From Edaphobacter flagellatus (lineage in GTDB: Bacteria > Acidobacteriota > Terriglobia > Terriglobales > Acidobacteriaceae), in the NCBI RefSeq assembly GCF_025264665.1, contig NZ_CP073697.1:372001-436000 (forward strand): DNA of 64,000 nt, in the 5' to 3' direction. The translations under genes and the position numbers were made by a program. The notes under the pieces are model-generated. The model saw only the letters and a program-made list of their open reading frames with translations. It ran no database searches and was not told where the DNA came from. Positions 17,763-25,239 of the stretch are shown here, piece after piece (the first letter of the stretch is position 1; each line of letters opens with the position of its first letter).

Positions 17763-18044
17763 CTAGAGAAGGCCGCCTGCAATGGAAGGGATGAGCATGA
17801 CTTCGTCGCCATCCTGGAAGGTATAGGCCTCTCCACCGAGGAAGCGGATGTCTTCGTCGTTGACATAGATGTTGATGAAGCGGCGAAGCTTGCCATCCTC
17901 ACCCTTGATCTGCGTCGAGAGCGCCGGGAAGGTCTGGTCGATGTCGGCCAGCAGGGCTGAAAGGTTCTCAGCCGGAGAGTCAAACTGCTTCTTGCCAGCG
18001 GTGTGCCGGGTGAAAGCGGTCGGAAGGGTTACTTTGATAGACAC
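17763..18044 (-). CDS. MoaD/ThiS-like sulfur-carrier protein
   Basis: A 93-residue beta-grasp protein of the MoaD/ThiS/CysO family. These carry sulfur as a thiocarboxylate on a C-terminal Gly-Gly. Here the C-terminus reads IPSIAGGLL, so two leucines follow Gly-Gly and would have to be clipped before activation, as for HcyS-type carriers. The GTG at 18044 is chosen: it lies 2 bases after the synthase stop, GGAGG is 9 bases upstream, and it gives the typical MSIKVTLPT start; TTG 18050 overlaps the stop and is too close to the RBS. The coupling to a threonine-synthase-family gene under a SAM riboswitch suggests a role in methionine rather than molybdopterin synthesis. That is inference. Confidence 0.87.
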   Translation of the reverse strand: MSIKVTLPTAFTRHTAGKKQFDSPAENLSALLADIDQTFPALSTQIKGEDGKLRRFINIYVNDEDIRFLGGEAYTFQDGDEVMLIPSIAGGLL

Positions 18045-18046
18045 GT

Positions 18047-19333
18047 TCAATTTCCTCCTGCAACTGCAAGTTCGGGCTCCGCGACACCGTCGAGCTCGCG
18101 GAGATAAGCGTCGAAGTCAGCCAGGCGCGGACGGACGGCGCGCTCCTGCTGATAGTGGCCGACGAGCGCATCGGTCGTCTTGAGACCGTTGCCGGTGATG
18201 CAGCTGACGGTGACCTCGTCGGGCGAGATGCGGCCCAGAGCGTAGAGACGCGCGGTAACGGCGGTGGTGACGCCGCCAGCGGTCTCGGTGAAGATGCCTT
18301 CGGTCTCGGCAAGCTCCTGGATGCCGGAGACGACCTCGACGTCGGAGACGTCCTCAGCCCATCCGCCGGTCTGCTGGATCATCTTAGCGGCTGCCGGGCC
18401 GTCGGCCGGATTGCCGATCGCGAGCGAGCGTGCGATGGTGTTGGGGCGCTGCGGCTCAATGTAGTCCCAGCCCTGCTTGACGGCATGCGAGATGGGCGAG
18501 CAGCCGGTGGCCTGAGCGCCGAAGAAGCGGACGGGCTTGTCTTCGACGAGGCCGAGGTAGATGAGCTCCTGGAATGCTTTGCGAATCTTGCGAATGAGAG
18601 AGCCACCAGCCATGGGGACGACAACGTTGTCGGGAAGACGCCAGCCGAGCTGCTCGGCGATCTCGTAGCCAACAGTCTTCGAACCCTCGGCGTAGTAGGG
18701 GCGGAGATTGACGTTGACGAAGCCCCAGTTGTATTCGTCGGCGATGAGGGTGCAGAGGCGGTTGACGTGGTCGTAATTGCCGTCGATGCGTACGAGGCGT
18801 GCGCCGTAGACCTGCGTGTTGAGGATCTTGGCGGGCTCGAGGTCGGCAGGCACCAGAACGCAGGCCTTGAGGCCGAGACGCACGGCCTGAGCGGCAACGG
18901 AGTTGGCGAGGTTGCCGGTCGAGGAGCAGCCGACGGTCTCGAAGCCGAAGCCCTGTGCGTTGGCGAGTGCGACGGAAACGACACGGTCTTTGAAGCTGAG
19001 CGTCGGGAAGCAGACGGCGTCGTTCTTGACGTAGAGATGGTTGGCACCGATGCGCTTGCCGAGGTTCTTTGCGCGGACGAGCGGCGTGAAGCCTACAGGC
19101 AGGTCGGGCTGGAACCCCTTGGGCAGAGGCAGCAGCGTGGCATAGCGCCAGATGTTGGCCGGTCCCTGAGCGATGGCCTCGCGGGTAAATACGCCGCGTG
19201 CTGCATCGAGATCGTAGGTGACTTCAAGAGGGGCCAGGCAGTCGGGGCAGGCCGAGAGGGGCTGATTGCCGAACCGTTTGCCGCACTCATTGCACTTCAA
19301 CTCATACGCCACAGCCGAACACGAATAGCTCAT
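18047..19333 (-). CDS. thrC: Threonine synthase-family PLP enzyme under SAM riboswitch control
   Basis: A 428-residue fold-type II PLP enzyme. An N-terminal zinc ribbon (Cys14, Cys17, Cys29, Cys32) precedes the catalytic domain; the PLP lysine is Lys115 in TLSFKDR and the phosphate loop is GCSSTGNLANS. By family it would convert O-phosphohomoserine to threonine. Context argues for caution: the leader is a SAM-I riboswitch and the next gene is a MoaD-like sulfur carrier. A role in making homocysteine from O-phosphohomoserine and a carrier thiocarboxylate is therefore plausible (compare CysM with CysO). GGAGAGAG precedes the ATG, and the stop TGA is 2 bases before the moaD-like start. Confidence 0.9.
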   Translation of the reverse strand: MSYSCSAVAYELKCNECGKRFGNQPLSACPDCLAPLEVTYDLDAARGVFTREAIAQGPANIWRYATLLPLPKGFQPDLPVGFTPLVRAKNLGKRIGANHLYVKNDAVCFPTLSFKDRVVSVALANAQGFGFETVGCSSTGNLANSVAAQAVRLGLKACVLVPADLEPAKILNTQVYGARLVRIDGNYDHVNRLCTLIADEYNWGFVNVNLRPYYAEGSKTVGYEIAEQLGWRLPDNVVVPMAGGSLIRKIRKAFQELIYLGLVEDKPVRFFGAQATGCSPISHAVKQGWDYIEPQRPNTIARSLAIGNPADGPAAAKMIQQTGGWAEDVSDVEVVSGIQELAETEGIFTETAGGVTTAVTARLYALGRISPDEVTVSCITGNGLKTTDALVGHYQQERAVRPRLADFDAYLRELDGVAEPELAVAGGN

Positions 19334-19467
19334 TACGCTCTCTCCGGAGAGGAAGAGGTAACTGCGCTGTGACGTCTCTCGAGGAAGAACTGCATATGCA
19401 AAGGCACATACAGTCCGGGGTGGACTGAAGTTCGTGGGGCCAATGGGGTATGCCCCTCGAATCTCAT
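19333..19467 (-). CDS. Possible leader ORF overlapping the thrC start
   Basis: A 44-codon ORF starts at an ATG formed by the 3' strand of riboswitch helix P1 (CATGAGAT) and ends TAATG, sharing one base with the thrC start codon. AGGGA, from the 3' strand of P4, lies just upstream with short spacing. If translated, its start would be hidden when SAM is bound, and TAATG coupling would pass this on to thrC. An open frame of this length is not rare by chance, so the call is speculative. Confidence 0.25.
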   Translation of the reverse strand: MRFEGHTPLAPRTSVHPGLYVPLHMQFFLERRHSAVTSSSPERA

Positions 19468-19573
19468 GTTCCCTGTTTCCAGGAGAGAGTTGACACCGGT
19501 CGCCCGAAATAATGGTTTCAGGCCGGTTGTCGTGGCGTCACAGGGCTCGTCCCTCAACCACTCTTCATGAAAT
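19461..19573 (-). ncRNA. SAM-I (S-box) riboswitch aptamer
   Basis: The minus-strand leader matches the S-box core: AAGAGTGG-TTGAGGGA-cgaGCCC-tgTGAcgCC-acgaCAACC, then CCGGTGtcAActC. All four helices can be drawn. P1 is ATTTCATG/CATGAGAT (8 pairs, one G-U). P2 is GTGG/CCAC with inner GGG/CCC. P3 is ACCGG/CCGGT with an inner GAAA/TTTC hairpin. P4 is CCTG-GAAA-CAGG, closed by a GNRA loop. SAM binding would lower expression of the thrC-like and moaD-like genes. Downstream hairpins (GGGGC/GCCCC and CAGTCC/GGACTG) have no T-run, so a translational or Rho-linked platform is more likely than intrinsic termination. Confidence 0.92.
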
Positions 19574-19616
19574 TCGCGTCTGTGTTGGGATATCCCGCAA
19601 CAGACTGAATAGATAT

Positions 19617-19645
19617 GTTGTATCACAGGTAAACAGGTGCTGCAA
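19617..19645 (-). promoter_or_regulatory. Probable promoter of the riboswitch-thrC-moaD transcript
   Basis: On the minus strand, TTGCAG (19645-19640) and TACAAC (19622-19617) are 17 bases apart and about 45 bases upstream of the aptamer. A further imperfect hairpin (GTCTGTTGCGGG / CCCAACACAGAC) lies between the promoter and the aptamer. Confidence 0.5.
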
Positions 19646-20811: not shown

Positions 20812-23522
<2,711 letters not shown>

Positions 23523-23526
<4 letters not shown>

Positions 23527-24638
23527 GCTGCAACCTCAGTGTGTCGACGAAGGCTGCGTGGAGCCTGGCCTTCGAGCGCCTTCGCGATAGCCGCGATGTG
23601 CTCGGGTGTGTTCCCGCAGCAGCCGCCCGCGATGTTGATGAGGCTGCCTCGCGCGAAGTCGCCAAGGTAACGAGCCATGTCTTCGGGCTGGAAGTCGAAG
23701 CCGGTGGGCGAAAGCGGATTGGGCAGGCCAGCGTTTGGATAGGCCGAGATGGCGGCACTTGATTTCCCGGACAGCTCTTCGAGAAAGGGATACATCAGAT
23801 CCGGGCCGAGCGAGCAGTTGAGTCCAACGGAGAGCGGGTTGGCATGCTCGACTGCATTCCAGAAGGCCTCGACGGTCTGCGCGGAGATCATCGTCTCGCC
23901 ACCGCGACCGACGGCAGCGGAGATCATGATGGGCAGTTCTCTTCCCTGTGCGGTGAGACCGTCTTCGTCGAAGACCTCGCGGATGGCAACGAGCGCGGCC
24001 TTGGCGTTGAGTGAGTCGAAGATCGTCTCGACCAGAAGCAGGTCGGAGCCGCCAGCGATAAGCGCGCGCACCTGTTCGGCGTAGGCGGTCTTCACCTGAT
24101 CAAAGGTGACGACGCGGAAGCCGGGGTCGTCGGCATCGGGCGAGTTCGAGAGCGAGACGGTCAACGGTCCGATAGCTCCAGCGACGAAGCGCTGACGGCC
24201 GGTCTGGTTGGCGACACGGTCGGCCCACTCACGACACTGACGCGAAGACTGCTCGTTGATCTCCCACGCAAGGTCGCTGAGCATGCGGTTGTCGATGATT
24301 TTCTGATAGAACTCGGGATCTTTGCGCCCGCCGTGCTCGCGCGGGTCGTCGACGAAGAACTCGCTCTGGGCGATGCTGGTTGCGCCGAAGGTATTGGTCT
24401 CGATGATGTCGGCACCCGCTTCGAGAAAACGACGGTGAATGTCGCCGATCATCACGGGCTGCGTGAGCGAGAAGAGATCGCCGTTATTCAGCAGGTCCTT
24501 CTTCGCATCTTTGAACCGCTCGCCGCGGATGTCCGCCTCTTTCATATCGTAGGTGCGGATGGTTGTGCCCATCGCTCCATCGATGATGGCAATCCGGTTC
24601 TCGAGAATCTTTTCAAGAGGATGCTGACGAGTGATCAT
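23523..24638 (-). CDS. metH: Methionine synthase, homocysteine-binding domain (N-terminal part of split MetH)
   Basis: A 371-residue homocysteine S-methyltransferase barrel corresponding to the first module of MetH. It begins with [12 protein letters not shown]. The zinc ligands are the Cys of GLNCSLGPD and the two Cys of GGCCGN near the C-terminus. It stops after this module and overlaps the second metH gene by four bases. ATG 24638 is chosen, with AAGGA 12 bases upstream; ATG 24662 adds eight residues and is possible. The frame extends further upstream without a conserved sequence. Only about 95 bases separate it from the NuoI-like gene upstream on the same strand. Confidence 0.93.
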
Positions 24639-24732
24639 CTTTATCTGACGTCCTTCGGACATTGCGCGATGCACTTTCCGCCTGACTGAAGCACGGAAGG
24701 CCGCTGCAACGATGTTTCCTAATACCTTGAAA

Positions 24733-25239
24733 TCAGGCGAGTATATCGGCCTGGTCGCGGTCTGAAAGCACGGCGTCGGGCATGTGCGGACCACTGGAAA
24801 CCAGCAGGTCTTCCTTACGCATAACCAGGGTGGTGGCGTTCAGCGATGCCAGCTCGAAACCGTGGCCGTGCGTGATGGCGTCTGTCGGGCAGGCCTCGAC
24901 ACAGTAACCGCAGAAGATGCAGCGGTTGTAGTCGATGTTGTAGACCTTGGCATAGCGCTCGGACGAGGAAATGCGATGCTCGGCGGTGTTTTCTGCCGCT
25001 TCGATGTAGATGCAGTTCGAGGGGCAGGCGGCCGCGCACAGGAAGCAGGCAACGCATTTTTCCAGGCCATTTTCGTCACGCTGCAACTGGTGCTTCCCGC
25101 GGAAACGCTCCTGGAACTTGGCACCACGCATGGGTCCTTTACCGTCGGGGTAGTTCTCTACCTCAGTCGGCTGAAAGGCCTCTCTCAGCGTGACGCTCAT
25201 TCCTTTGACGATAGCGGTGGCGTTGCGAACGATGGACAT
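24733..25239 (-). CDS. nuoI: NuoI-like NADH-quinone oxidoreductase subunit (8Fe ferredoxin)
   Basis: A 168-residue protein with two [4Fe-4S] motifs, CVACFLCAAACP and CIFCGYCVEACP, spaced as in complex I subunit I (TYKY). The N-terminal helix MSIVRNATAIVKGM and the segment NYPDGKGPM are typical of NuoI. It would pass electrons toward quinone in the peripheral arm of complex I. No other nuo gene is in the window, so this copy is isolated; it may complement a nuo cluster elsewhere or serve another oxidoreductase. It is divergent from the molybdopterin-fold gene. Confidence 0.88.
   Translation of the reverse strand: MSIVRNATAIVKGMSVTLREAFQPTEVENYPDGKGPMRGAKFQERFRGKHQLQRDENGLEKCVACFLCAAACPSNCIYIEAAENTAEHRISSSERYAKVYNIDYNRCIFCGYCVEACPTDAITHGHGFELASLNATTLVMRKEDLLVSSGPHMPDAVLSDRDQADILA

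Follow-up and report, generated by a model that had tools for sequence, protein, structure and literature searches.

The window analysed here is a 64,000-nucleotide stretch from the genome of the soil bacterium Edaphobacter flagellatus (contig NZ_CP073697.1, positions 372,001 to 436,000), and the subject is a short operon on its minus strand: a gene annotated as threonine synthase, hereafter thrC2, preceded by a riboswitch of the SAM-I class, which responds to S-adenosylmethionine (SAM), and followed by the gene of a small sulfur-carrier protein. The idea that such a pair might make homocysteine is not new, a MetM/MetO route having been published for Streptomyces. According to a 2025 paper (PMC12172450), Hasebe et al. 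(2024; Appl Environ Microbiol 90:e01247-24) found that MetM of Streptomyces albulus is a homocysteine synthase that converts O-phosphohomoserine to homocysteine and averts methionine auxotrophy. The features of the locus, with the two parts of a neighbouring metH, are the following:

19461..19573 (-): SAM-I riboswitch aptamer (S box), Rfam RF00162
19334..19460 (-): leader from aptamer to start codon, 127 bases; possible translational expression platform (Shine-Dalgarno GGAGAG against CUCUCC upstream)
18047..19333 (-): metM-like gene (thrC2; annotated threonine synthase), fold-II pyridoxal phosphate (PLP) enzyme, 428 amino acids; PF00291, TIGR00260
17763..18044 (GTG start, 93 amino acids) or to 18050 (TTG start, 95 amino acids) (-): metO/cysO-like sulfur-carrier gene, C-terminus ...SIAGGLL; PF02597
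17713..17742 (-): terminator-like hairpin ending in UUUU, from fold energy and sequence
20812..23526 (-): metH, C-terminal part with pterin, B12-binding and activation domains, 904 amino acids; PF00809, PF02607, PF02310, PF02965
23523..24794 (-): metH, N-terminal part with the homocysteine S-methyltransferase domain, a separate open reading frame, 423 amino acids; PF02574

An earlier, sequence-only reading of this DNA had described a full SAM-I aptamer ahead of a threonine-synthase-family gene, a MoaD/ThiS-like gene 2 bases behind it and a terminator after the carrier, and each of these elements was recovered. The aptamer (19573-19461, minus strand) scored 68.5 bits against RF00162 (gathering score 44.4; E 7e-14), covered model positions 1-108 of 108, and was the only SAM-I copy returned by an Rfam search of the whole genome, a single contig of 4.45 Mb and 99.7% completeness. 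The carrier gene, with its GTG start at 18044, begins 2 bases past the thrC2 stop. Downstream of it, the stretch 17762-17695 folded at -23.7 kcal/mol as compared to -12.4 for shuffles (z -4.0); the hairpin at 17742-17713 (minus strand) has a 13-pair stem and a terminal UUUU, in which all but one U are paired in the fold. A simple scan for promoter and terminator patterns overlooked this hairpin, and the same scan listed no U-tailed hairpin in the leader. In the leader of the window, the Shine-Dalgarno sequence GGAGAG is able to pair with CUCUCC immediately upstream. Local complementarity of 4-6 bp to the Shine-Dalgarno site was present in 7/7 same-genus leaders (GGAAAG/CUUUCC in two relatives), a count that carries no chance estimate and comes from pyrimidine-rich leaders. 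This complementarity hints at translational control of the thrC2 operon by SAM-I.

The product of metH uses homocysteine, but the gene is a neighbour of the thrC2 operon, not a part of it. It is split into two open reading frames that overlap by 4 bases (20812-24794, minus strand). Its adjacency to thrC2 is not conserved; metH clusters (c9 and c10) were present in 3/32 of the thrC2 neighbourhoods compared in the phylum.

The ThrC-like enzyme and its carrier

We apply the name thrC2 to the window gene (18047-19333) and to its homologues of at least 48% identity in a sample of 149 Acidobacteriota genomes, in which the next matches were at most 39% identical. The window product matched PF00291 and scored 270 bits against the NCBIfam thrC model TIGR00260; the gene is annotated as threonine synthase because this score exceeds the model cut-off of 167. 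The protein bears three altered motifs: PTLSFKDRV, STGNL, and NVNLRPYYAEGSKT. STGNL was found in 113/113 proteins of the thrC2 clade, and PTGSFKD and NSVNPxR each in 0/113, whereas the canonical PTGSFKD, STGNT, and NSVNPxR were each found in 14/15 canonical-type ThrC proteins. The count of PTLSFKDRV among the loci gathered across phyla (below) is biased, this motif having been a selection pattern; STGNL was not used for selection. For the NLR...EG.K stretch, a stricter pattern fitted 66/113 proteins; 41 of the 47 misses show (Y/F)Y.EG.K(S/T) and 6 yielded no fragment. A tree of 128 proteins placed all 113 thrC2 members in one clade, with the 15 canonical-type ThrC outside it (Shimodaira-Hasegawa-like approximate likelihood ratio support 99; a quick method, with long branches flagged). 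The best 21 Foldseek matches to a structure model of the window product (mean predicted local distance difference score, pLDDT, of 84) were threonine synthases; the root mean square deviation was about 12, and fold class alone is taken from this comparison. We predict that the thrC2 product is an O-phosphohomoserine-dependent homocysteine synthase.

The sequence-only reading had proposed a search for a second, canonical thrC, and the genome does hold one. Ten of its proteins match PF00291, three of which are ThrC-like: the window product, one of 500 amino acids, and one of 422. We regard the 500-amino-acid protein as the canonical threonine synthase because its gene directly precedes the homoserine kinase gene thrB (TIGR00191, 240 bits, cut-off 168), in an operon at 933191-935631; thrC2 is not the sole candidate for a threonine synthase gene. 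A conventional homocysteine pathway, also put forward for checking, did not appear: profile searches at set E cut-offs gave no match to MetX (TIGR01392, 1e-30), MetA (PF04204, 1e-20), MetY (TIGR01326, 1e-100), or HcyBio (PF01837, 1e-20) in the E. flagellatus genome.

The window carrier belongs to the ThiS family PF02597, and its best solved relative is CysO (3dwg_C, E 5e-21). A tail beyond Gly-Gly was present in all 118 scorable proteins among the 120 listed closest homologues, and none terminates at Gly-Gly; the tail is variable in sequence and is 2 residues long in 76 and 1 residue long in 28 of the 118. Carriers ending at Gly-Gly do occur in the wider family (33 of the 75 carriers in the cross-phylum loci, a set that includes some Acidobacteriota). 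Thiocarboxylate formation needs the tail to be removed first, and a protease step is therefore predicted, for which a JAMM protease is a candidate. All 15 genomes of the family examined below have a JAMM, with or without the pair; its presence does not track thrC2 and so is no evidence for the pair. At five loci (L156, L158, L161, L168, and L170), the carrier downstream of thrC2 has 80 extra residues past Gly-Gly; at L156 Pfam places a NIL domain (PF09383) in the extension, and the other four have tails of equal length with similar starts.

A cysM-JAMM-cysO-E1(rhodanese) operon (L137) lies elsewhere in the genome, at 1230277-1233405. It is a seemingly complete carrier-dependent set for cysteine, and its carrier is 35% identical to that of the window. 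This operon probably supplies the E1 and JAMM for the thrC2 pair. Somewhat short of even odds, in our estimate, is the fuller proposal that the Acidobacteriaceae carrier is a pro-protein, its variable tail cut after Gly-Gly, and that one E1 and one JAMM from the cysM-JAMM-cysO operon serve two carriers, one for cysteine from O-phosphoserine and one for homocysteine from O-phosphohomoserine. If so, both sulfur amino acids would be built on protein thiocarboxylates, with SAM-I governing the homocysteine branch alone.

Distribution and genomic context

Within the phylum sample, 15 genomes belong to the family designated f1. Of these, 12/15 carry thrC2 (the copy in G112 is a fragment), and none of the 12 has MetY or a strong MetX (E < 1e-60), although three of them gave weak MetX matches (E 8e-32 to 2e-40, two partial). 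The 3/15 genomes without thrC2 all have both strong MetX and MetY. Across the phylum, thrC2 was present in 35/149 genomes; strong MetX, MetY, or MetA was found in 2/35 of these as compared to 44/114 of the others (Fisher p 1e-4, relatedness ignored). The pattern suggests that the thrC2 pair stands in place of MetX/MetY in Acidobacteriaceae, a point newly added here.

SAM-I aptamers occurred in 53/149 genomes, at 68 sites. The association with thrC-carrier pairs that the sequence-only reading had proposed to survey proved close: in 21/21 of the thrC2 genomes with any SAM-I, thrC2 is preceded, at a distance of 104-2388 nt, by the one SAM-I of the genome, and the pairing is thus not due to chance. 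No SAM-I match was obtained in the other 14/35 thrC2-bearing genomes, and a separate Rfam scan of 30 thrC2 loci found SAM-I in 17. The 47 remaining sites comprise 7 before metY-metA, 4 before metY and a weak metX, 3 before a weak metX, and 33 with none of these within 4 kb, so that at least 35/68 SAM-I sites mark a homocysteine-step gene or thrC2.

Gene neighbourhoods were compared in 32 of the 35 thrC2 genomes (G094, G103, and G112 were left out; G094 and G103 have the carrier). At two loci a single SAM-I heads a run of E1, cysteine desulfurase, thrC2, and carrier (L063, named by Pfam/NCBIfam, and L065, named by eye). Elsewhere thrC2 and carrier are joined by a rhodanese-E1 and an aspartokinase (L060; aspartokinase by eye), or by an SDR, CysM, JAMM, and a carrier-E1-rhodanese fusion (L067; SDR and CysM by eye), and at L076 a sulfite/nitrite reductase lies upstream of thrC2.

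The family extends well beyond the phylum. A scan of GTDB by the patterns LAIGNPAD or P[TS]LSFKDRV gave at least 585 related stretches, of which the best 80 were analysed, the rest not being confirmed as thrC2 clade. The 80 loci span Nitrospirota, Planctomycetota, Verrucomicrobiota, Omnitrophota, Cyanobacteriota, Thermodesulfobacteriota, Mariprofundaceae, Acidobacteriota, and others. A carrier lies at most 1.6 kb downstream of thrC2 in 75/80, SAM-I lies upstream in 44/80, and both are present in 41 (at L205 the SAM-I is weak, 34 bits). On the same strand and within 5 kb of thrC2 we counted E1 at 25 of the 80 loci, CysM/CysK-like genes at 20, canonical ThrC at 10, JAMM at 6, cysteine desulfurase at 5, and sulfite reductase at 5, all of them lower bounds from single-sequence searches. 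At ten Nitrospirota loci (L163, L174, L188, L189, L190, L191, L198, L201, L208, and L225), thrC2, carrier, and canonical ThrC are clustered on one strand; at L183 a canonical thrC stands near thrC2 on the opposite strand, with hom and thrB. A Nonomuraea locus comprises a SAM-I, an enzyme 55% identical to that of the window and within the thrC2 clade, and a carrier ending in AGG. No thrC2 relative was found among viral contigs; 9 records from a phage collection led nowhere, the 5 listed matching 84-87% of the query at 33-37% identity.

The probable homocysteine route and its alternatives

We consider it probable (roughly 0.87) that thrC2 and the carrier gene form a MetM/MetO pair that makes homocysteine for methionine under SAM-I control; substrate, sulfur transfer, trimming, and mode of control are all inferred. 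The proposal of the sequence-only reading, that this enzyme may combine O-phosphohomoserine with a carrier thiocarboxylate to give homocysteine, gains support from comparative genomics and from the MetM precedent as the 2025 paper describes it (PMC12172450). The order of events would be as follows: the carrier would be cut back so as to end in Gly-Gly, an E1 of the MoeB/ThiF type would adenylate it, and sulfuration would turn it into the thiocarboxylate. The ThrC-like enzyme would then, on PLP, eliminate phosphate from O-phosphohomoserine, and the carrier sulfur would be added at C-gamma to give homocysteine, either free or still bound to the carrier, from which a JAMM protease may liberate it. 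MetH would convert homocysteine to methionine. High SAM would turn the thrC2 operon off via SAM-I, possibly by hiding the Shine-Dalgarno site.

Several observations weigh against this interpretation. A homologue in Microcystis (51.6% identity to S. albulus MetM) is located beside a metO-like gene but has no SAM riboswitch; the 2025 paper reports that in vitro it acted as a threonine synthase on O-phosphohomoserine and also as a threonine deaminase, and that its induction left cellular methionine unraised (PMC12172450). Some threonine activity is accordingly conceivable for the window enzyme as well. Two genomes of our sample, G077 and G125, combine thrC2 with MetX and MetY. The carrier adjoins thrC2 in just 15/32 phylum neighbourhoods, and the 17 without it include all 11 of a subclade of 47-55% identity (one has a carrier 2.6 kb off); some copies in this subclade stand beside hom or thrB, as judged by eye, and their function may differ. 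The genome of E. flagellatus also has a CysK/CBS-like gene (L003) and a CGL/CGS-like gene (L012) whose products could in principle yield homocysteine by transsulfuration. Finally, 64/149 genomes have neither thrC2 nor strong MetX, MetY, MetA, or HcyBio (weak MetX uncounted). Because so many genomes show none of them, the absence of the usual homocysteine routes alone proves little; these 64 may have another route or a diverged MetX. As a separate observation, thrC2 at L081 (G077) lies behind a homoserine dehydrogenase, named by eye, and its role there may be in threonine synthesis.

The Microcystis activity and the subclade copies beside hom or thrB would also suit a bifunctional thrC2 product, a homocysteine synthase with the carrier that is at the same time a real threonine synthase. 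This possibility overlaps with the MetM/MetO reading, such that the odds do not sum to 1, and we consider it rather unlikely: the genome has its canonical thrC-thrB operon, a canonical ThrC is nearby on the same strand in 10/80 other loci, and SAM control suits methionine, not threonine. An ordinary threonine synthase, with the SAM switch balancing the branch point and the carrier a chance moaD neighbour, is highly improbable. It could draw on the NCBIfam score above cut-off, on a fold nearest to threonine synthases, and on the 17/32 phylum neighbourhoods without an adjoining carrier, but it must contend with the separate canonical ThrC, motifs altered in 113/113 proteins, the absence of strong MetX and MetY exactly where thrC2 is present in family f1, and operons that include E1 and cysteine desulfurase. 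A plain threonine synthase was rejected on the first two of these grounds, and a chance moaD neighbour on the carrier adjacency in 75/80 cross-phylum loci.

Two further alternatives place the pair elsewhere in sulfur metabolism. A cysteine synthase of the mycobacterial CysM kind, using O-phosphoserine together with a thiocarboxylate of CysO type, would fit a carrier whose best solved relative is CysO and the CysM/CysK-like genes near thrC2 in 20/80 loci. Within fold II, however, the enzyme belongs with ThrC and not with CysM, and its operon is under SAM-I control; NCBIfam thrC was its best match, and the 25 families listed out of 35 include no cysK or cysM model. We rejected a CysM-type enzyme, the chances of which appear slight in the extreme, on the basis of the cysM-JAMM-cysO-E1 operon elsewhere in the genome with its own carrier. 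It is likewise very unlikely that homocysteine arises mainly by transsulfuration, L012 joining O-phosphohomoserine to cysteine and the thrC2 pair playing a minor part. L012 does adjoin the CysK/CBS-like gene, and TK1449 of T. kodakarensis has been proposed to act on O-phosphohomoserine (PMC5120207); but L012 matches best, and below cut-off, a cystathionine gamma-lyase/homocysteine desulfhydrase model, and it has no SAM-I.

Returning to the MetM/MetO reading, its consequences reach beyond one genome. Many thrC2-clade genes are annotated as threonine synthase, and the genes beside them under such names as molybdopterin subunit or sulfur-carrier protein, making this a spot where sequence-based naming misleads metabolic models. 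Read as MetM/MetO, the pairs would supply missing steps of the methionine pathway in Acidobacteriota and, probably, also in Planctomycetota, Verrucomicrobiota, Nitrospirota, and others. The motif set, together with the SAM-I association, would serve as a cheap discriminator of MetM from ThrC.

Comparison with known systems

The window enzyme has the fold of canonical ThrC (1uim, 2d1f, 2zsj) and, within SFKDR, the same PLP lysine, but it differs at three conserved motif stretches and falls in a separate clade. With the CysM/CysO/Mec system of Mycobacterium, E. flagellatus shares a CysO-like carrier and, in the same genome, a JAMM protease and an E1; the window enzyme is not a CysM, however, and the cysM-JAMM-cysO-E1 operon is separate. 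In Wolinella, HcyS, HcyD, HcyF, and MetY carry out homocysteine synthesis from a protein thiocarboxylate, the carrier being trimmed behind Gly-Gly and the fold-I enzyme MetY using O-acetylhomoserine. The window pair would likewise make homocysteine from a protein thiocarboxylate, with a carrier that has residues behind Gly-Gly. Unlike the Wolinella system, it has a fold-II, ThrC-like enzyme, presumably acting on O-phosphohomoserine, in a genome with no MetY match.

Streptomyces is not known to have the usual homocysteine route, and E. flagellatus resembles it in having no match to MetX, MetA, MetY, or HcyBio. In S. albulus, metO is said to lie downstream of metM and MetO to act as a thiocarboxylate. 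The resemblance of the window operon to that system is drawn from its description; in our tree, the thrC2 clade takes in one actinobacterial and two cyanobacterial genes. As the 2025 paper describes the S. albulus system, MetM is ThrC-like, a SAM riboswitch lies upstream of metM, metO is a gene of sulfur-carrier type, and cyanobacterial homologues exist (PMC12172450); the window has the same three elements. It differs from the S. albulus system in standing where relatives have MetX/MetY, and from the Nonomuraea locus in that its carrier has a short variable tail past Gly-Gly, where the Nonomuraea carrier ends at GG. The window pair is most likely a new, probably orthologous member of the MetM/MetO family, and what it adds to the precedent is the replacement of MetX/MetY in Acidobacteriaceae, the spread over many phyla, and the variable carrier tail.

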